A DNA stretch of 38,835 nucleotides from Candidatus Nomurabacteria bacterium (GCA_003155695.1 PMDZ01000011.1:18299-57133), one strand, 5' to 3'. Counted from the first letter of the stretch, positions 3-36,569 are shown. A program made the numbers and translations. The notes: generated from the letters alone by a model not told the origin.

Positions 3-332
3 ACCGGAGCATATTTATATAATTTAGATACTTCTATTCTCGAGCTTGGCAAACACGAAACCAAATCGAAAAATACTTTGGAAAATCAAGTAAGTTTATA
101 TGCCACCCCGGTTCCATTTATAGTTGGGGCGGAGAGTAAGCCGAAAAATTTTACGGCTTGTTCACTCCTGCGAGGTGATTTGAACTGCGATAACCATGTC
201 AACCTCATTGATTTTTCCATTATGGCTTATTGGTACAAGAGGACAAATCCTCCACAGATAGTAGATTTAAGCGGTGACGGCAAGATTACTTTGACGGACT
301 TCAGTATATTAGCATTTAATTGGACTGGCTAA
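3..332 (+). CDS. C-terminal end of a dockerin-bearing secreted protein (5' partial)
   Basis: The frame is open from the window edge to TAA at 330-332, so only the last 109 residues are seen and the start lies outside. The end is a type I-like dockerin with two EF-hand-like calcium loops. The first contains GDLNCDNHVNLIDF (about 174-215) and the second DLSGDGKITLTDF (about 264-302); both keep the D-x-(N/S)-x-D spacing and an Asp at loop position 12. In the dockerin family such modules bind cohesins non-covalently and attach proteins to a scaffold. The next three genes encode cohesin-like proteins, so a partner relationship is likely. The nature of the N-terminal cargo is unknown. Confidence is high for the dockerin and low for any further function. 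Confidence 0.85.
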   Translation, partial: TGAYLYNLDTSILELGKHETKSKNTLENQVSLYATPVPFIVGAESKPKNFTACSLLRGDLNCDNHVNLIDFSIMAYWYKRTNPPQIVDLSGDGKITLTDFSILAFNWTG

Positions 333-351
333 ACCACAGAAGTAGCCGCCC

Positions 352-375
352 GATTCACGAAGTGAATTTAGGGGT
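352..375 (+). promoter_or_regulatory. Hairpin and Shine-Dalgarno ahead of the first cohesin gene
   Basis: ATTCAC (353-358) and GTGAAT (362-367) form a perfect stem with a GAA loop. AGGGGT follows at 370-375, six bases from the ATG at 381. There is no U-run, so this is not a terminator. The hairpin may influence translation or processing between the dockerin and cohesin genes. This is one of very few clear Shine-Dalgarno sequences in the window. Confidence 0.5.
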
Positions 376-380
376 AATGT

Positions 381-1277
381 ATGAAAATAAAAAAATTAAA
401 AATTATATTAATACTTCTCTTTTTTATCCTGAATTTATTTCTGGCAAGTAAAGTATTTGCCGCGACTCTAACTTTGAATCCTTCCAAGGAATCCCTGGGG
501 ATAGGGGAACAGTTCTATGTGGATTTGATGCTAGACCCGGAAGGGCAATCAGTAAATACAATTAGAGGTAGCGTCTCATTTGCAAGCGATAAAGTTTCTT
601 TCGTAAGGGTTGAGGATGGTAAATCACTGGTTAATTTATGGGTAGAGAAACCAAAATTGGAGGGGAACACTATTGGCTTTGCCGGAGTAATTTCCAATGG
701 ATTTGACGGGGTGATTGACCCATTCAACCAAAGTCATAAATTACCGGGATTGATAATTCGTTTGATATTCGAAGCCGAAAATCCCGGGCAAGTCGATTTC
801 TCAACCTCGACATTTTCCTTAAATCTAAATGACGGATTGGGGACGGAAATAGAAGCTCCTTCAGCAAATAGTTCTGTAAATGTTGGTGATTTCTCAAATA
901 TATTAAAATATAAAGCGAGTGGTAATGGAACTCCGGAGTTGGAAGCTTATATAACGCGTGACCCGAATATTTATAACAATAAATATGTCCTCGTTTTCAA
1001 GGCCAACGATAAGGGAACAGGCATAAAAAGTGTTATGATAAAAGAAGGAGGAAGTAGCTGGAAAGAAATAGAGAGCCCTTATCTCCTCAAAGACCAATCC
1101 CGTCACAGTAATATTTCTTTGCAGGCTATGAATTTTTCCGGAGCGGGAGTTTCCATAAATATCAACGGAATTCCTTATGATTGGATATCACTAATCAGGA
1201 TTGCAAGTGTAATCATCACTATTATCGTAGTATTATCCGTTTTAATTATCAAAAAGAAATATGCGAATAAAAAATAA
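381..1277 (+). CDS. Membrane-anchored cohesin-domain protein 1
   Basis: 298 residues. A signal peptide covers residues 1-28 (hydrophobic core then VFAA). A cohesin-like beta-sandwich spans about 29-168, with the features GIGEQFYVDL, GVISNGFDG and LNLNDGLGTE. A second small beta domain follows (about 180-262), then a C-terminal membrane helix (about 268-290) with a KKKYANKK tail facing the cytoplasm. The predicted topology puts the cohesin outside the cell. The first of three cohesin genes, it overlaps the next by 17 bases and lies 48 bases after the dockerin gene. It shares the cohesin pattern (GKS...LW...P, F.GVI.NG, LNDG.G) with the third protein. The likely role is to display a docking site for dockerin proteins at the membrane. 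Family assignment is by pattern recognition only. Confidence 0.75.
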   Translation: MKIKKLKIILILLFFILNLFLASKVFAATLTLNPSKESLGIGEQFYVDLMLDPEGQSVNTIRGSVSFASDKVSFVRVEDGKSLVNLWVEKPKLEGNTIGFAGVISNGFDGVIDPFNQSHKLPGLIIRLIFEAENPGQVDFSTSTFSLNLNDGLGTEIEAPSANSSVNVGDFSNILKYKASGNGTPELEAYITRDPNIYNNKYVLVFKANDKGTGIKSVMIKEGGSSWKEIESPYLLKDQSRHSNISLQAMNFSGAGVSININGIPYDWISLIRIASVIITIIVVLSVLIIKKKYANKK

Positions 1278-2214
1278 AAATTTATATTTCTCTTTATTTT
1301 TTTTATTTTTTATAATATCTTTTTTTATCGATATAAGTAAAGTTTCCGCGGCAACCGCCAGCTTTTCTCCCGCATCCGGAACCTATAATGTCGGCGATAC
1401 TATAAAAGTAAGGGTTCTAGCAACAAGCGATAGATCGATCAATGCTTTTTCCGCCAATGTCTCTTTCTCCAAAGATATTTTATCGTTAACGTCAATTTCT
1501 AAAAGTTTATCACTAATAGATTTGTGGCCTCGAGATGCGGTCTATTCAAACAGCGATGGATTTGCGAATTTTGAGGGAGTAATGCTCAACGGTTACACCG
1601 GAAATGCCGGCAATATAATAACTTTGATTTTTAAGGCAAAAGCAGTAGGAACAGCATCTATCCGTTTTACAAACGTTTCAATATTGGCAAATGATGGTAG
1701 TGGTACGGATATTTTTTTGGGTGGGTTGTCCACAGGAACTTTTAATATAGAGAAAGCCGTTGCAGTTGCAAATGTTGAGAAAAAAGCACCGACGCCGACC
1801 CCCGCTTGTATAAATACAAATACCGGAGTACCGGAACCAACCATTTCCTGTATTGCAATAAATGCAATAGATAAAATTAAGGAAGTTGAGGTTGCCAATA
1901 ATTTACCGAACAATTCACTTGTCGTAACTCTCGCTATTATTTTTATAATTATACTTAGTCTTATAACAATTTATTTGTTTTATTTTATTTTTAGAATTAA
2001 AAAATATTTTAAAAATAAATTATTCAAAACCGAAGATATCATAAATAAAAATTTCAAAAATCTGGAAAAAGATATTGAATTAAAAGAAATAAATCTGAAG
2101 AAATCGAAGGGGGTTAAAATTGGCAGGGAACAAGAAGATGATATCTTGGAAGAAGTCGCAGATACCGAAGAGAAGATTATCAAAGAAGTCGAGAAAATTG
2201 AGGATGAAATATGA
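1261..2214 (+). CDS. Membrane-anchored cohesin-domain protein 2
   Basis: 317 residues starting at an ATG inside the end of the previous gene. A signal peptide spans about 1-31 (KVSAAT). A single cohesin-like domain spans about 32-166 (YNVGDTIKVRV, FEGVMLNGYTG, LANDGSGTD). A short linker with APTPTP and two Cys follows, then a strong membrane helix (about 217-243). The cytoplasmic tail of about 70 charged residues is probably coiled coil. The cohesin lies outside and the acidic/basic helical tail inside, so it could connect to an intracellular partner. It overlaps the third cohesin gene by 4 bases (ATGA), which indicates translational coupling. Confidence 0.72.
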   Translation: MRIKNKNLYFSLFFLFFIISFFIDISKVSAATASFSPASGTYNVGDTIKVRVLATSDRSINAFSANVSFSKDILSLTSISKSLSLIDLWPRDAVYSNSDGFANFEGVMLNGYTGNAGNIITLIFKAKAVGTASIRFTNVSILANDGSGTDIFLGGLSTGTFNIEKAVAVANVEKKAPTPTPACINTNTGVPEPTISCIAINAIDKIKEVEVANNLPNNSLVVTLAIIFIIILSLITIYLFYFIFRIKKYFKNKLFKTEDIINKNFKNLEKDIELKEINLKKSKGVKIGREQEDDILEEVADTEEKIIKEVEKIEDEI

Positions 2215-3563
2215 TTAATTTTTTAAAAAAGAAAATTTTCATTTTATCTATTTTAGGCTTGTTTCTAATACCCTTTTTTTCATTTGCGCAGTCGGTAATA
2301 AATTTGGATGGCCCATCTCTTTTACCTAAAGCTGAAATTTTTACTAGTCCACACACGGGAGATTTCTTGGAAGACTCAACTTTTGAGGTTCCTATTTATA
2401 TAAACACGGAAGGCAATAGTATAAATACCATAAATATAAAATTAAATTTTGACCCGTCCAGGTTATCTATTATAAAACCTTCGGGGGGAAAATCGATTTT
2501 TGGAATTTGGCTTGAACCCCCGAGTTACGATAATAAAGCCGGAACGGCTAGTTTTGTTGGGGTTATTCCTAATGGTATAGTTACAAGTTCGGGACTTATT
2601 GCCACAATAACCTTCAAGGCTATTTCTGTCGGTGAAGCCAGAATTAATTTAACCGATTATACAAGCGCCAATCTTAATGATGGAGTAGGGTCTAATGTTA
2701 AATTAAGTTTAAACGGGTCGTTTTTGACTATTAGTCCTATAACTCCGGAGGGGGTAATGATTTATTCCGATACTCATCCATATCAAGACCATTGGTATAA
2801 CAACAATTCTCCCATTTTGAAGTGGGATTCGCCACCAGGAATAAATGGTTACAGTGTTTTAATCGATTTAAATCCCGGAACCATTCCCCCGATTACAATA
2901 AATACCGATAATTCTTCCATTTCTTATGAAAATTTGAAAGATGGGGTTTGGTACTTCCATGTCAGAGCAAATATAAATGGAGTCTGGGGTAATACTTCAC
3001 ATTTTCAAATAAAAATCGATACGAATCCTCCGGCTTTTTTCACCCCGACTGTTAATACCATAAAAGATAATTCCAATTCAAGTAAATATTTACTTTCATT
3101 TATTACGACGGATTCATTATCAAGTGTGGACCATTATGAAATCGGTATTTTGGATAAAGACCAGGAGAATAATTCTTCTCCTATCTTTGTCCAAACAGAA
3201 AGTCCGTATCTGGTATCAAACGCAAGCAAAAATATACATGTAATAATCAGAGCTTTCGATAATGCCGGAAATATTCGTGAAGCGTCCATTGATCTTTATC
3301 CGGGTGTTAATCTAATCATCGCTCTTAAAAAATATGCTTTATATTTATTTATAATTCTGACCTTCCTTCTTCTTCTCGAACTCATACTGCACTATCTTTT
3401 CGGTCATCATATTATCGACCATGTCAAAAAAATGTTTCTTATTTTCAAAAAGATTTCCTCCGATGATAAAAAATATGAGAAAATCGAAGAGGAGATAAAC
3501 GAAGTTGATAATCCCGTTAATCCTACCGTTCCCGTTCCTCCAAATAATGAAGAAAAACCTTAA
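2211..3563 (+). CDS. Membrane-anchored cohesin-domain protein 3 with Ig/FN3-like modules
   Basis: 450 residues. A signal peptide covers about 1-26 (FSFAQS). A cohesin-like domain lies at about 38-172 (FEVPIYINTEGNSINTINI, GVIPNG, ANLNDGVGS). A module resembling fibronectin-III or Ig folds (about 178-272, LKWDSPPGINGYSVLI then GVWYFHVRA) and another beta module (about 275-365) follow. A membrane helix (about 373-397) and a cytoplasmic tail ending in a Pro-rich stretch complete it. It is the longest of the three and the best candidate for a surface scaffold. It is last in the operon, followed by a weak hairpin terminator. Confidence 0.72.
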   Translation: MINFLKKKIFILSILGLFLIPFFSFAQSVINLDGPSLLPKAEIFTSPHTGDFLEDSTFEVPIYINTEGNSINTINIKLNFDPSRLSIIKPSGGKSIFGIWLEPPSYDNKAGTASFVGVIPNGIVTSSGLIATITFKAISVGEARINLTDYTSANLNDGVGSNVKLSLNGSFLTISPITPEGVMIYSDTHPYQDHWYNNNSPILKWDSPPGINGYSVLIDLNPGTIPPITINTDNSSISYENLKDGVWYFHVRANINGVWGNTSHFQIKIDTNPPAFFTPTVNTIKDNSNSSKYLLSFITTDSLSSVDHYEIGILDKDQENNSSPIFVQTESPYLVSNASKNIHVIIRAFDNAGNIREASIDLYPGVNLIIALKKYALYLFIILTFLLLLELILHYLFGHHIIDHVKKMFLIFKKISSDDKKYEKIEEEINEVDNPVNPTVPVPPNNEEKP

Positions 3564-8819: not shown

Positions 8820-9515
8820 ATGATAGACTTTTCACAATTCGAAAAAAAGACAAATATTATATTTAATGATAAAAAGCTTCTGGAACAAGCATTTATTCAC
8901 CGTTCATATATAAATGAAAATACCGGGTCGCAATTATCGCACAATGAACGTTTGGAATTTTTGGGAGACGCTGTTCTCGAACTTATCGTCACCGATTATT
9001 TATACAACAAATATCCCGACCAAGATGAGGGGAGTTTGACTGCTTATAGGTCATCGCTCGTTAATGCGATTATTATCGGAGAAGTGGCTATGGACATCGG
9101 AATGAATGAATATTTGCTTCTTTCAAAAGGTGAGTCCAAAGATGTCGGCAAAGCTCGAGGCTATATTCTCGCCAATACTTACGAAGCCTATGTCGGAGCA
9201 GTCTATCTTGACCGCGGATACGATGTAGCCAAAGATTTCATCGCGGGGACACTTTTCGGAAAGATTGAAGCTATCGTGGCCAAGAAATTATGGCGAGACC
9301 ACAAGAGTTTAATTCAAGAAAAATCTCAAGAATATTTAAACGTCACCCCGAACTATAAAGTTTTGAGTGAAGTCGGACCAGACCACGATAAACATTTCAC
9401 TATCGGAATATTTTTCGGAGACGAACTGGTTGCCGAAGGCAAAGGTAAATCAAAACAAGAAGCCGAGCAAGAAGCCGCGCGCGGTGCATTAGAAGTTAAG
9501 GAGTGGCTTGATTAA
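8820..9515 (+). CDS. rnc: Ribonuclease III
   Basis: 231 residues, normal length. It cleaves double-stranded RNA in rRNA and mRNA maturation. The signature NERLEFLGDAVLE is at 42-54 and the second acidic residue (E122) is in TYEAYVGAVYLD; these supply the metal-binding carboxylates. A dsRNA-binding domain follows at about 160-230, ending GKSKQEAEQEAARGAL. The ATG is one base after the nusB-NUDIX stop, and the end lies just before smc, so the three genes are probably one transcript. The rnc-smc pairing is also seen in other bacteria. Confidence 0.95.
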   Translation: MIDFSQFEKKTNIIFNDKKLLEQAFIHRSYINENTGSQLSHNERLEFLGDAVLELIVTDYLYNKYPDQDEGSLTAYRSSLVNAIIIGEVAMDIGMNEYLLLSKGESKDVGKARGYILANTYEAYVGAVYLDRGYDVAKDFIAGTLFGKIEAIVAKKLWRDHKSLIQEKSQEYLNVTPNYKVLSEVGPDHDKHFTIGIFFGDELVAEGKGKSKQEAEQEAARGALEVKEWLD

Positions 9516-9516
9516 A

Positions 9517-11790
9517 ATGACTCTCAAATCTATTGAGCTAACAGGTTTTAAATCATTCGGAAAGAAAAGCGTTGTGGCTTTCACCACACCGATAACTTCT
9601 ATTGTCGGGCCAAACGGTTCGGGCAAATCAAATATTGTCGAAGCAATACGTTTCGTCCTTGGGGAACAGTCAATGAAGTCTCTTCGCGGGAAAGGCGGAG
9701 TTGACCTTATTTTCAAAGGCTCAAAAGGAATGTCATCTTCCAATCGGGCTCAAGTCCAAATCACTTTCGACAATACAAATAAAATTTTTTCTTTTACGAA
9801 TAGCGGACTTGGAGTCTCACTTGATTACGATGAGATAGTACTTGGCCGAGAAGTTTTTGCCGATGGCTCGAACAAATACTCTATCAATCATACAGAAGTT
9901 CGTCTGAAAGATATTGTTGACTTGTTGGCCTCGGTAAATATCGGAAGTTCCGGGCACCATATCATTTCCCAAGGAGAATCAGACCGAGTTCTTAATGCTT
10001 CCAATAAAGAGCGTCGAGGTATGATTGAAGATGCTCTTGGTTTACGAGTTTACCAATTCAGAATTAAAGAATCGGAAAGAAAACTGGAAAAAACACTTAT
10101 CAATATCAAGGAGGTTCAAGCCCTTCGACGCGAGATTGCTCCTCATTTGGCATTTTTGAAAAAGCAGGTCCAAGTTGTGGAGAGGGCACGCCAAATGCGA
10201 GACGAGTTACGCGAACTTTATAAAACTTATCTTTCGAAAGAGGGGACATATATAAATAATGAAACCAAAAGATTGGGTGATTTACGTCGGTCATTAAATG
10301 ACAAAGGCTCATCACTTGATTCTCGGATTGAAGAATTACAAAAACGAAATAATGAGAATAAACCCAACGACGTCTATTCCAAAGAAATAGAAGAATATGA
10401 AAATAAAGTTTCTGATATTCGAAATACAAAAAATGAATTAGTCCGCAAGCTTGGCCGCATCGAGGGAATTTTAGAAGGTATTGAACATCAGTTTTCCAAG
10501 GTCAAAGAAGTTAAAACTAGAGTTATCGAAGAATCGGAATGGCGGATTTTTATCAATGATATATCAACTCGCATCGATGAAGCTATCAAAATAGAAGATT
10601 TGCCGAATGTTATCGAGGCTTTGAAGAATATCAAGTCGCACCTGGAAGGATTTTATAAAAATAAAGATACGAACGAGAAAGAAAATATTTCTTTGGAAGA
10701 CAATCCTGAATATAAAGAGATGAAAAATTCCAAAGATGAGATTCAGAAAGAGATAGAAAAAATGGAAAGCGGAGAGAAGGAAATAGAGGATGCAATCGGA
10801 GGATTAAAACAGAAAGAAGTTGAAAACCAGGCCTCGTATCGTAATAGCGAGAAGATACTCTATGAACTTCTTCGTGAGAAAAATGAAGTGACCTCAAACT
10901 CACATTCGCTTAACTTTGAAGAAGAAAAACTTTCAATGATAAAAAGTGCGTTTGAAATGGAACTCTCTGAAGCCGGAGTTCTAATTGGTAGAGAAATAGT
11001 CGATTTTGCCAAAGAAAAAGTCGAAGGGGAAATTAATCGGATCTCTCAGGAAGAACTACGGAAGAAGATTGAACGCATAAAAATTAAGATTGAAGATGCC
11101 GGCTCCGGTTCAGGCAACGATGTAATGAAAGAGTTTGAAGAGACGGCTGAACGTGATGCATTTTTAGGAAAAGAAATTGAAGATCTGAATAAAAGTATCA
11201 AAGATTGCAATCTTCTTATTCAGGAATTGAAAGAAAAATTGGATACGGAATTTAAAACCGGGGTTGAAAAAATCAACAAGCAGTTCCAGGAATTTTTCGC
11301 TTTGATGTTTGGCGGTGGTGGAGCCTTTCTTTCAATCACCATGGAACACAAAAAACCGAAGAAAAACGACGAATCAATAGAAGAAGACGAAGAGACAGAG
11401 GAAGAAGATGAGGAAGAAAACGAAATCGGTTTCGAGCGCGGCATTGAGATAAACGTCAACTTGCCTCACAAGAAAGTCAAAGACTTACATATGCTCTCCG
11501 GAGGGGAAAGGTCTCTGACCTCCATCGCTCTTTTGTTTGCCATTTCACAAGTTAACCCGCCACCATTTCTAGTCCTCGATGAGACGGATGCGGCGCTCGA
11601 TGAAGCCAATTCCCGCAAATACGGAAACATGCTAGAAAACCTTTCCAAATATTCTGAGCTTATCGTCGTCACTCACAATCGCGAAACCATGTCACGAGCC
11701 GATGTCCTCTACGGAGTGACCATGAGCGCCGAAGGTGTCTCCAAACTTCTCTCCATTCACCTTGAAGATGCTACCTCATACGCGAAATAA
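9517..11790 (+). CDS. smc: Chromosome segregation SMC-family ATPase, short form
   Basis: 757 residues from ATG 9517; a TTG at 9508 could add three residues, but MTLKSIELTGFKSF matches family starts. Typical SMC is about 1150-1200. The N-lobe has Walker A GPNGSGKSN (31-39) and the R-loop LRGKGG. The C-lobe has LSGGERSL (from 660), Walker B FLVLDETDAALDE (about 684-696) and VVTHNRETM. The central 425 residues are charged coiled coil (about 165-590); no canonical globular hinge with its Gly-rich motifs is recognisable. An acidic insert lies in the C-lobe (nt about 11370-11425, ESIEEDEETEEEDEEENE). The role is chromosome compaction; ScpA and ScpB are not in the window. The order rnc-smc supports SMC over RecN or Rad50. 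Confidence 0.88.
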   Translation: MTLKSIELTGFKSFGKKSVVAFTTPITSIVGPNGSGKSNIVEAIRFVLGEQSMKSLRGKGGVDLIFKGSKGMSSSNRAQVQITFDNTNKIFSFTNSGLGVSLDYDEIVLGREVFADGSNKYSINHTEVRLKDIVDLLASVNIGSSGHHIISQGESDRVLNASNKERRGMIEDALGLRVYQFRIKESERKLEKTLINIKEVQALRREIAPHLAFLKKQVQVVERARQMRDELRELYKTYLSKEGTYINNETKRLGDLRRSLNDKGSSLDSRIEELQKRNNENKPNDVYSKEIEEYENKVSDIRNTKNELVRKLGRIEGILEGIEHQFSKVKEVKTRVIEESEWRIFINDISTRIDEAIKIEDLPNVIEALKNIKSHLEGFYKNKDTNEKENISLEDNPEYKEMKNSKDEIQKEIEKMESGEKEIEDAIGGLKQKEVENQASYRNSEKILYELLREKNEVTSNSHSLNFEEEKLSMIKSAFEMELSEAGVLIGREIVDFAKEKVEGEINRISQEELRKKIERIKIKIEDAGSGSGNDVMKEFEETAERDAFLGKEIEDLNKSIKDCNLLIQELKEKLDTEFKTGVEKINKQFQEFFALMFGGGGAFLSITMEHKKPKKNDESIEEDEETEEEDEEENEIGFERGIEINVNLPHKKVKDLHMLSGGERSLTSIALLFAISQVNPPPFLVLDETDAALDEANSRKYGNMLENLSKYSELIVVTHNRETMSRADVLYGVTMSAEGVSKLLSIHLEDATSYAK

Positions 11791-34543: not shown

Positions 34544-35995
34544 ATGAAAGGATTTGAACAAAAGGTTATAAAAACAGATAATCTTGATAATATCCCAAAT
34601 AAAGAAAAGCCAGCTACAACAATTGAAATAAATGGTATCCGTATTGAGGTTAAAAAAGAAAATTTTGAATACTCGGAACAAATTCAAAAAGAAACTGGAA
34701 TTTTGGGGTATGAAAGATTTGTTATAAATAAAGAAAATTTAATTGATTTTATCAAAAAAGATTTTAAAAAAGAATTTGGAATTGATATAGAACAAAAAGG
34801 ATTTACCAATATAGATTCTCTTGATGATTTTAAAGAAAAGTCAAAAAAAGAATATGAGCAAGAATGTCAAAAAATCAGAAGTCGATATGGTAGCGATTCA
34901 AAAGAATGTAAAGAATTTTTTGAAAGCACCGAGAATAAAATTTACTCAAAAATAAGAAATTTAAACACCGATACTTGTTATAAAATTATTCGTGTACTTT
35001 CTAACCAAGAATATCCGGACAGATGTTTTACCCACGAAATCGGATTTGATTACGGCAAGGAACAAAAAGAAAATTTCAAAAAAGAACTTGTAAAAAACAA
35101 ATTTTTTATTCAAAAAATTTATGATATTGATTCAATAAAAGAAAAGGCAAGAATAGAATCACCCCAAAAAATATTTAATGCCATAGGCAATCTCGAAGGT
35201 GAAATTAGGTCAGACATAACAATTTTTGATAAAAAAACGGGAGAAAAGATTAATTCTAATCAATCAGTTCTTATTGCGGAACTTGCTAAACCAGAATATT
35301 TTGAAGGAATAAAAAATGGTGATTTATTTGCCTGCACCCCTAATTCTGGTTTTAATGTTTCAACAGGAAAGTTTTTTCTTCCACCAAATATTAAATTATC
35401 AAATGAGATACCATCATTTGGTTTTTCTATGAAAGAAAATTTTTTTAATAAATATCTAAATAAAGCTCTAGATATTTACACAAAAGAAATAAAGGGTTTT
35501 GATTTTAAAAAAGAAAAAAAAGAAAAATATAAACATATATACAATCATGGAATTAATTCTTTAATAAAGGAATTAATTTTTTCAGATAACTCTATCCAAA
35601 ATATATTTAAAAGAATTTTTAATCAGGAAGAAAATCAATGGTTTAAACCCTTTATCATTCAAAGTTTTGATAGTTTTTGGAATGATTTTTCAAAAATTGT
35701 GAATGATGTTATTAAAAAACTAGAAACACAACATAATATAAAAATTTTAGATTATATAAAGGAACGAAATTTTAAAAAAGAAAAAAATGATGATAGTTAT
35801 AATTTTTCTGAGTGGTTAGATCCTGCAGGGATATTTGGACTTGAAGGAGAGCTACGATTACCTATTTTTATTGGTCGTGATGATATTCCTCAACTTTGTT
35901 GGGGTCACGCAAAATATGCTCATTTTATGAGTCCAAAGGGCTTTAATTTTATTGAATTCAAACACGCCGATCATTTACCTAGTAAAACCGACTAG
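34544..35995 (+). CDS. Hypothetical accessory protein, 483 residues
   Basis: No family recognised. There is no signal peptide or membrane helix; it looks soluble and cytoplasmic, very rich in Lys, Glu, Asn, Ile and Phe. Helical, charged stretches cover about 20-130 (ECQKIRSRYGSDSKECKEFF). A mixed middle section (about 205-300, ITIFDKKTGEKINSNQSVL, FACTPNSGFNVSTGKFFLP) follows. The most structured-looking part is the C-terminus (about 425-480: DPAGIFGLEGELRLPIFIG, WGHAKYAHFMSPKGFNFIEF). It is far more A+T-rich than the flanking ribosomal and synthetase genes. Its stop codon is formed by the right boundary repeat. Composition and bounding repeats suggest acquisition; a host-interaction, toxin or defence role is possible but unsupported. 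Confidence 0.6.
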   Translation: MKGFEQKVIKTDNLDNIPNKEKPATTIEINGIRIEVKKENFEYSEQIQKETGILGYERFVINKENLIDFIKKDFKKEFGIDIEQKGFTNIDSLDDFKEKSKKEYEQECQKIRSRYGSDSKECKEFFESTENKIYSKIRNLNTDTCYKIIRVLSNQEYPDRCFTHEIGFDYGKEQKENFKKELVKNKFFIQKIYDIDSIKEKARIESPQKIFNAIGNLEGEIRSDITIFDKKTGEKINSNQSVLIAELAKPEYFEGIKNGDLFACTPNSGFNVSTGKFFLPPNIKLSNEIPSFGFSMKENFFNKYLNKALDIYTKEIKGFDFKKEKKEKYKHIYNHGINSLIKELIFSDNSIQNIFKRIFNQEENQWFKPFIIQSFDSFWNDFSKIVNDVIKKLETQHNIKILDYIKERNFKKEKNDDSYNFSEWLDPAGIFGLEGELRLPIFIGRDDIPQLCWGHAKYAHFMSPKGFNFIEFKHADHLPSKTD

Positions 35996-36006
35996 GCAAG
36001 ACTTAG
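35978..36006. repeat. Right boundary repeat of the accessory gene
   Basis: CCTAGT (35978-35983) is inverted as ACTAGG (35991-35996). ACTAGGCAAGACTTAG (35991-36006) is the direct copy of the left repeat, and AAACCGACTAGG (35985-35996) is the inverted copy of 34480-34491. It supplies the last two codons and stop of the preceding gene. Confidence 0.7.
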
Positions 36007-36022
36007 CAGTTTTTCTCGTTCA

Positions 36023-36060
36023 TTTTACCCAGCTTCTGCTATCGCACTTTTTAGATAAAA
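36023..36060. repeat. 38-base repeat, copy 1, upstream of the Cas2-like gene
   Basis: 32 of 38 bases match copy 2 at 36571-36608, including TTTTACCCAGCT and CTGCTATCGC. The ends TTTTA/TAAAA are inverted. It abuts the -10 of the Cas2-like gene. Confidence 0.7.
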
Positions 36061-36064
36061 GTTG

Positions 36065-36070
36065 TATAAT
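36065..36070 (+). promoter_or_regulatory. Promoter -10 of the Cas2-like gene, leaderless type
   Basis: TATAAT at 36065-36070, seven bases before ATG 36078. No -35 is clear; the preceding repeat occupies that position. Confidence 0.5.
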
Positions 36071-36077
36071 AAGGTAT

Positions 36078-36569
36078 ATGAGTGTAGAAAAAGAAATTCT
36101 TGAATATTTAAACAAAAAGAAATCGGTACTTAAATACAAAGGTACAAGAGTTGGTTTTATGGGATTACCAGATTTTAATTATTACAAATATCAAACACTT
36201 GCAAATAAATTTTCTGTTCTTCATAAAAAGGGTTTAATTAAGAAAATGCCCGATGGAGAATATATTATAACAACTAAAGGGAAAATATTTTTAGAAAAAG
36301 GAAAAGATATTTTGAGAAAATTTAAAACAGATAAAGATGAAAATTCTCAGAAAGATTTATTAATTGTTTATGATATAGAAGAGAATAAAAAAAGGGAAAG
36401 AGACTGGTTTCGTCGTCATTTAAAAAAGTTTCACTTTATAATGATCCAAAGAAGTGTTTGGGTTGGACCGTCACCACTTCCTAAAGAATTTTCAGATTAT
36501 CTAAAAGAAATAGAATTAGGAGGTAATTTAAAAACATTCAAACTCGCAAGAGGGTATGGAGAGAAATAA
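36078..36569 (+). CDS. Winged-helix protein with a Cas2/PaaX-like C-terminal domain
   Basis: 163 residues from ATG 36078; the longer in-frame opening from 35952 crosses the repeats and is rejected. An N-terminal winged helix-turn-helix covers about 3-80 (LANKFSVLHKKGLIKKMPDG, EYIITTKGK). The C-terminal ferredoxin-like domain (about 92-157) begins LLIVYDIEENKKRERDWFRR, with Asp99 at the position of the Cas2 active-site Asp. It continues with MIQRSVWVGP and LKTFKLARG, close to the Cas2 strand pattern. The same pairing (wHTH plus Cas2-like) is known in PaaX-type regulators. No cas1, CRISPR array or phenylacetate genes are present, so a regulator or solitary nuclease is likelier than CRISPR adaptation. 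Repeats flank it on both sides. Confidence 0.78.
   Translation: MSVEKEILEYLNKKKSVLKYKGTRVGFMGLPDFNYYKYQTLANKFSVLHKKGLIKKMPDGEYIITTKGKIFLEKGKDILRKFKTDKDENSQKDLLIVYDIEENKKRERDWFRRHLKKFHFIMIQRSVWVGPSPLPKEFSDYLKEIELGGNLKTFKLARGYGEK

Follow-up and report, generated by a model that had tools for sequence, protein, structure and literature searches.

A non-cellulosomal cohesin–dockerin operon with a probable surface-docking role in a Candidatus Nomurabacteria genome

Introduction

In the cellulosome, the type I cohesins of the CipA/ScaA scaffoldins and the dockerin-bearing cellulases belong to the same families as the modules reported here, and anchoring proteins keep the cohesins at the cell surface. 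This report describes a four-gene cohesin/dockerin group at the start of a DNA stretch of 38,835 nucleotides from Candidatus Nomurabacteria bacterium (GCA_003155695.1 PMDZ01000011.1:18299-57133), referred to below as the window. Within the first 3.6 kb of the window lie a dockerin gene, represented by its 3′ part (gene 1), and three cohesin genes (genes 2–4). The genome (G000) is 773 kb in size, 95.7% complete and in 12 contigs, and the window is C10:18299-57133. Unlike the cellulosome, this system shows transmembrane anchors and not SLH or sortase signals, the dockerin proteins examined carry no hydrolases, and as a rule there is no multi-cohesin scaffoldin.

Non-cellulosomal cohesins and dockerins elsewhere are largely found on secreted enzymes or as isolated proteins. 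Modules from Archaeoglobus fulgidus (2xdh) and the cohesins of Clostridium perfringens glycosidases (2vo8, 2w1n) have the same folds and no cellulosome context. The window differs from these in showing single membrane-anchored cohesins, ordered behind one dockerin gene and with conserved cytosolic tails.

Already known are cohesins and dockerins outside cellulosomes (Peer et al. 2009, as cited in PMC10066038) and earlier mentions of either module in the phylum. Microgenomates cohesin and dockerin transcripts were interpreted as a cellulosome (PMC9123182). In a biogas survey, cohesin/dockerin genes were classed among polysaccharide-degradation functions, and some members of the candidate phyla radiation were predicted to be degraders (PMC7038595). 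SEML1_0315, a dockerin protein of Southlakia epibionticum (Saccharibacteria), is essential in transposon sequencing, and host-glycan adhesion or degradation was suggested by the authors (PMC10633639). It is likewise a dockerin protein of a Patescibacterium, likened here by description and not by sequence, and the text of PMC10633639 does not mention cohesin. The WxL/Csc clusters (CscA = DUF916/WxLIP; PMC1534035, PMC10599100) share with a part of the related loci a WxLIP-like protein with a C-terminal transmembrane segment, and WxLIP has been proposed as a link between bacterial and host surfaces (PMC10599100). Unlike the described Csc clusters, the loci reported here contain cohesin and dockerin genes, and their secreted paralogues give no Pfam match.

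The literature, searched mostly without subscription journals, gave no description of an ordered operon, of position-specific cohesins or of the tail module reported here, and no paper joining dockerin, cohesin and Parcubacteria. These three features are presented as new, their novelty against the whole literature being uncertain.

Results

The window begins with a cohesin/dockerin operon, which confirms the observation made by a sequence-only reading of this DNA. The coordinates claimed for the four genes are borne out (Table 1), and overlaps are found between genes 2 and 3 and between genes 3 and 4. The products of genes 2–4 each have one hydrophobic segment near the N-terminus and another near the C-terminus, predicted by hydropathy to be signal and transmembrane segments, and one cohesin by profile. 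Cohesin and dockerin hidden Markov models match all four genes, those of Pfam in genes 1, 3 and 4 and an independent cohesin profile in gene 2.

From its sequence match, the C-terminal domain of gene 1 is a type I dockerin (PF00404), scoring 29 bits against a Pfam Dockerin_1 cut-off of 22.9, and the gene stops 6 residues past the match. Both of its loops (177–212 and 264–299) read as F-hand calcium loops, with D at position 1, N/D/S at 3, D at 5 and D at 12. The same ligands recur in 91 family dockerins: D1 100%, N3 95%, D5 94% and D12 100% in loop 1; D1 100%, N3 91%, D5 91% and D12 97% in loop 2. The hallmark DFSI is kept in both loops of the family, positions 10–11 are mainly hydrophobic, and the dockerin lies at most 5 residues from the protein C-terminus in 103 of 113 cases.

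The claim of a dockerin-ended protein thus stands as regards the dockerin, but only the 3′ part of gene 1 lies in the window. A two-N assembly gap directly 5′ of the window (C10:18297) cuts the gene, and its N-terminal half is found across the gap at L007:7805-8297, where a signal peptide is joined by a linker rich in Gly to an immunoglobulin (Ig) domain of Big_6-like type. Because the intact homologue in RAAC4_OD1_1 (L065:8086-8985) is 300 amino acids long, about 38 residues of gene 1 have apparently been lost at the gap. Gene 1 as a frameshift or pseudogene was rejected; the halves meet at the gap and the gene is intact in a close relative.

The three cohesins differ in how readily they are detected. 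With a Pfam Cohesin (PF00963) cut-off of 24.1 bits, gene 4 scores 35.7 bits, gene 3 scores 23.0 bits as a protein (just under the cut-off) and 27.2 bits in a genome search, and gene 2 gives no match to this family. An independent cohesin profile, whose rows are all Pfam-positive and all come from other genomes, matches all three (gene 3, 3e-35; gene 4, 4e-35; gene 2, 7e-20), and none of five shuffled copies of gene 2 is reported by it. The cohesin fold of genes 3 and 4 is assigned by profile. For gene 2 a structure model was made of genes 1 and 2 read in frame through the intervening stops, which is a device and not a real protein. Foldseek with the gene 2 domain of this AlphaFold2 model gives cohesins as top matches (2w1n, E-value = 2e-11; 2xdh, TM-score 0.76 over the target), and over the cohesin plus the next Ig-like domain the best alignment is to 2w1n, in which a cohesin is paired with an FnIII domain. 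Model and independent profile together indicate that gene 2 is a cohesin too. The dockerin part of the model is mostly confident (10-residue block means 72–92). A phmmer search of the Protein Data Bank (PDB) with gene 2 alone gave mostly antibody light chains at E-values of 0.06 or higher, and these were rejected as noise.

Table 1. Features of the cohesin/dockerin operon (positions in the window)
Feature	Position	Strand	Basis
Gene 1, 3′ part: secreted Ig-domain protein, dockerin-ended	3..332	+	Pfam Dockerin_1 E=1.3e-6, residues 58-103
Predicted dockerin calcium loop 1, DLNCDNHVNLID	177..212	+	sequence
Predicted dockerin calcium loop 2, DLSGDGKITLTD	264..299	+	sequence; position 3 = S in gene 1 copy
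Gene 2: signal peptide, cohesin, Ig-like domain, C-terminal transmembrane segment, short basic tail	381..1277	+	profile, model, hydropathy
Gene 2 cohesin, under Pfam detection	450..884	+	independent profile E=7e-20; Foldseek on model
Gene 2 C-terminal transmembrane helix	1170..1250	+	hydropathy; model helix 394-423
Gene 3: signal peptide, cohesin, C-terminal transmembrane segment, 70-80-residue cytosolic tail	1261..2214	+	Pfam, profile, hydropathy
Gene 3 cohesin	1339..1752	+	Pfam Cohesin 1e-4, 23.0 bits; independent profile 3e-35
Gene 3 transmembrane helix	1900..2001	+	hydropathy
Gene 3 cytosolic tail module, ending ILEEVADTEEKIIKEVEKIEDEI	2002..2211	+	family alignment; E=5.1e-11
Gene 4: signal peptide, cohesin, two Ig/Fn3-like regions, C-terminal transmembrane segment, Pro-rich cytosolic tail	2211..3563	+	Pfam, profile, hydropathy
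Gene 4 cohesin	2328..2735	+	Pfam Cohesin 1.2e-8; lineage profile 8.7e-49 (gene 4 included in profile)
Gene 4 transmembrane helix	3303..3407	+	hydropathy

The gene order is conserved in relatives. Seventy-eight loci were retrieved by a pattern of gene 4, without reference to the dockerin, and their titles are of Patescibacteria type (Parcubacteria, Paceibacterota, Nomurabacteria and similar) or read bacterium only. Upstream sequence can be read in 68 of them, and in 60 of these the gene immediately 5′ of the first cohesin gene is a dockerin gene, with gaps between the two of −23 to +442 bp. Membrane-anchored cohesin genes number one to five per locus, most commonly three, and the membrane segment is C-terminal to the cohesin in 254 of 269 single-cohesin proteins. 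In RAAC4_OD1_1 the order of the window recurs, with the dockerin and cohesins followed by what we take to be gyrB, thrS, nusB-like, rnc and smc homologues. In this single case genes 3 and 4 share one reading frame that lacks the tail, which could be a sequencing artefact.

Further dockerin genes, which the sequence-only reading had proposed to look for, are present in the same genome. Searches with lineage profiles show exactly five cohesins and three dockerins at three loci, namely the window, the end of contig C2 and C8, and every locus holds both modules. At the end of C2, a dockerin protein (L008:5092-6108) is followed by a cohesin gene truncated by the contig end. Directly before this dockerin protein is a repetitive secreted protein of 1512 amino acids (DUF4082, Lcl_C; the region spans L008:557-6416). 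The C8 locus (L009:5697-6455; C8:109696-110454) carries an N-terminal membrane segment, a cohesin and a dockerin in one polypeptide, a scaffold-like piece in one chain.

Distribution was followed in a class sample of 188 genomes from 158 genera. Pfam profiles place both cohesin and dockerin in 36 genomes and neither in 105 (p = 4e-9), and 52 of 77 Pfam cohesin matches lie within 5 kb of a dockerin. Lineage profiles, partly built from rows of these same genomes, give 63 genomes with both, 8 with cohesin only, 9 with dockerin only and 108 with neither (odds ratio 94.5, p = 7e-31); the co-occurrence statistics ignore phylogeny. Some of the single-partner genomes may reflect assembly gaps. Profile searches of a genome of the same genus (G088) found no cohesin, dockerin or tail module. 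In a wider phylum sample (n = 145), cohesins are found in 57 genomes and dockerins in 39, so that the distribution in the phylum is patchy but wide. In G252 (C27), G277 (C33/C36) and G253 (C6/C7) there are 7–12 matches to dockerin, some of them in genes of about 620–720 amino acids arranged in tandem.

In operons with three cohesins, the cohesin domains group by position and not by genome, with 11 label changes on the tree versus 44.3 when shuffled. Since this grouping holds across genomes, the three cohesins of the window are old, distinct lines. The triplication suggested earlier is thus retained as an old common origin with position-specific lines, but a recent or local tandem event was rejected on the tree.

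The cytosolic tails also differ by position, with a median length of 10 residues in the first cohesin protein, 64 in the middle and 76.5 in the last. Cohesins after the first position often bear a conserved tail module of 70 residues, with its end near KEIKDIE, which is found in 66 cohesin proteins and 10 other proteins of the fetched loci. It is present in 42 of the 188 genomes, 38 of which carry cohesins (p = 9e-16), and shows no convincing match to any Pfam family. Gene 3 holds the only copy in its genome (E-value = 5.1e-11, gene 3 being among the 22 rows of the profile). Of 91 long tails, 30 contain a strict tail motif, versus 0.8 in shuffles, which lose the coil periodicity; the gene 3 tail aligns with the module yet misses the strict motif. 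The idea that differing tails have different inner partners gains support because the gene 3 tail is a conserved module and that of gene 2 a stub. In G101 there are nine matches to the module, including tandem proteins of about 240 amino acids (C3:7280-9595 and C5:39011-41961), and one tandem run lies near a cohesin gene.

Directly 5′ of the dockerin gene, 21 of 51 loci show a WxLIP-like membrane protein with a C-terminal transmembrane segment, and WxLIP_PGBD is matched by 25 of 29 such upstream proteins at an E-value of 0.01 or better (best, 2e-9). The upstream protein in the window genome (L007:6796-7818) gives 0.002 with WxLIP_PGBD, below the cut-off. Next 5′ are three secreted paralogues (L007:3239-6776) with no Pfam match and hence no WxL domain by Pfam.

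Discussion

The sequence-only reading took the locus for a surface-docking system rather than a cellulosome, and overall this interpretation is supported. The 88 dockerin proteins carry Ig/Fn3-type domains, Big_6 being found in 52, and no hydrolase domain is present among the 25 most frequent of their 28 families. GH9 (glycoside hydrolase family 9) is absent from the genome; other such families were not searched. There is one cohesin per protein throughout this genome and mostly one in relatives. The recurring gene order without cellulose-degrading enzymes therefore looks less like a cellulosome than like general equipment for attachment at the surface. The probability that this is a non-cellulosomal cohesin–dockerin operon for surface docking is put at about 0.75.

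In the proposed mechanism, gene 1 would be exported, and the two-loop, putatively calcium-binding dockerin at its extreme C-terminus would act as a plug. The products of genes 2–4 would also be exported and held by their C-terminal helix in the cytoplasmic membrane, each with one cohesin socket outside. Gene 1 would most likely be caught by one or more of these sockets, and its Ig domains, fixed by this capture, would form a coat, stalk or adhesin on the cell surface. The sockets appear unequal, gene 2 being a plain anchor with a stub tail and genes 3 and 4 reaching into the cytoplasm, where the conserved helical module of gene 3 probably binds a cytosolic partner. The WxLIP-like protein and the three adjacent secreted paralogues probably provide a further point of attachment, to the wall or to the surface. 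By analogy with the essentiality of SEML1_0315 and the surface-linking proposal for WxLIP, a relevance to host contact is suggested.

Several points weigh against surface docking by this operon. Cohesin–dockerin binding is something that we infer, and the read-through chain of dockerin and gene 2 has a predicted TM-score (pTM) of only 0.55, though its domains are confident. The window locus has three cohesins and one dockerin, without explanation. Seventeen genomes carry one partner only, and the co-occurrence is uncorrected for phylogeny, with rows from the tested genomes in the lineage profiles.

The closest alternative keeps the same docking mechanism and gives it another purpose, with no special role in cell contact. 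The dockerin protein would then serve as a coat component, S-layer-like or wall-linking, that the cohesins and the WxLIP-like protein keep in place. The dockerin proteins of most operons are small, of Ig type and without lectin-like or catalytic domains, which fits such an envelope, as do the WxLIP-like neighbours and the patchy but wide distribution. But the system is missing in more than half of the class, including the same-genus genome, which would be odd for an essential coat. This alternative is a serious contender, if on balance the less probable one.

A further alternative is that the local cohesins bind other dockerins, encoded elsewhere in the genome or by neighbouring cells, and that proximity reflects shared export or regulation. 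Two more dockerin loci are present in the genome, some genomes have 7–12 dockerins and few cohesins, and the specificity of local pairing is presumed. The dockerin-then-cohesin order of the related loci and the presence of an own pair at every locus of this genome argue otherwise, and make this explanation improbable. A third alternative is a reduced cellulosome that breaks down polysaccharides, the reading put forward for the Microgenomates organism (PMC9123182). It shares the domain families, and profile matches in the PDB are mainly to cellulosomal proteins, but it was rejected as highly improbable given dockerins that are not appended to carbohydrate-active enzymes (the 88 proteins and 25 families above) and the lack of GH9. 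Moreover, each protein has a single cohesin and an operon usually a single dockerin, whereas a scaffoldin is built the opposite way.

Surface docking may extend to the cell interior. The operon could encode a transmembrane docking receptor, in which capture of the dockerin outside is coupled, via the conserved tail of one cohesin protein per operon, to a specific partner in the cytoplasm that belongs to the cytoskeleton or to signalling; this is a tentative and rather unlikely extension. To our knowledge no earlier cohesin–dockerin system is wired into the cell interior, and this would be the first if the receptor proposal is true.

Host attachment and surface building in Patescibacteria are a largely unknown field. 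Present in about one third of the sampled class, this conserved, enzyme-free candidate docking operon offers a surface system that is concrete and open to testing, with binding as a reaction that can be measured. The operon is also an unstudied source of cohesin–dockerin pairs, and the conserved cytosolic module can serve as bait for finding a partner.

Neighbouring genes

Gene 4 of the window is presumably followed by gyrB, a name given from the sequence. Farther on, positions 9508–11790 encode an SMC-like protein of only 760 amino acids, with a coiled coil that is apparently shortened. A small protein at 35952–36569 reads like a fusion of the PaaX/Cas2-type winged-helix kind.

On the 5′ side, the region L007:2223-6776 holds the three paralogous secreted proteins, which are beta-rich, plus a fourth upstream. 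The predicted structure of a relative of these paralogues reaches a predicted local distance difference test (pLDDT) score of only 37. Some dockerin proteins (L038, L033, L045) share the N-terminal part of these secreted proteins.

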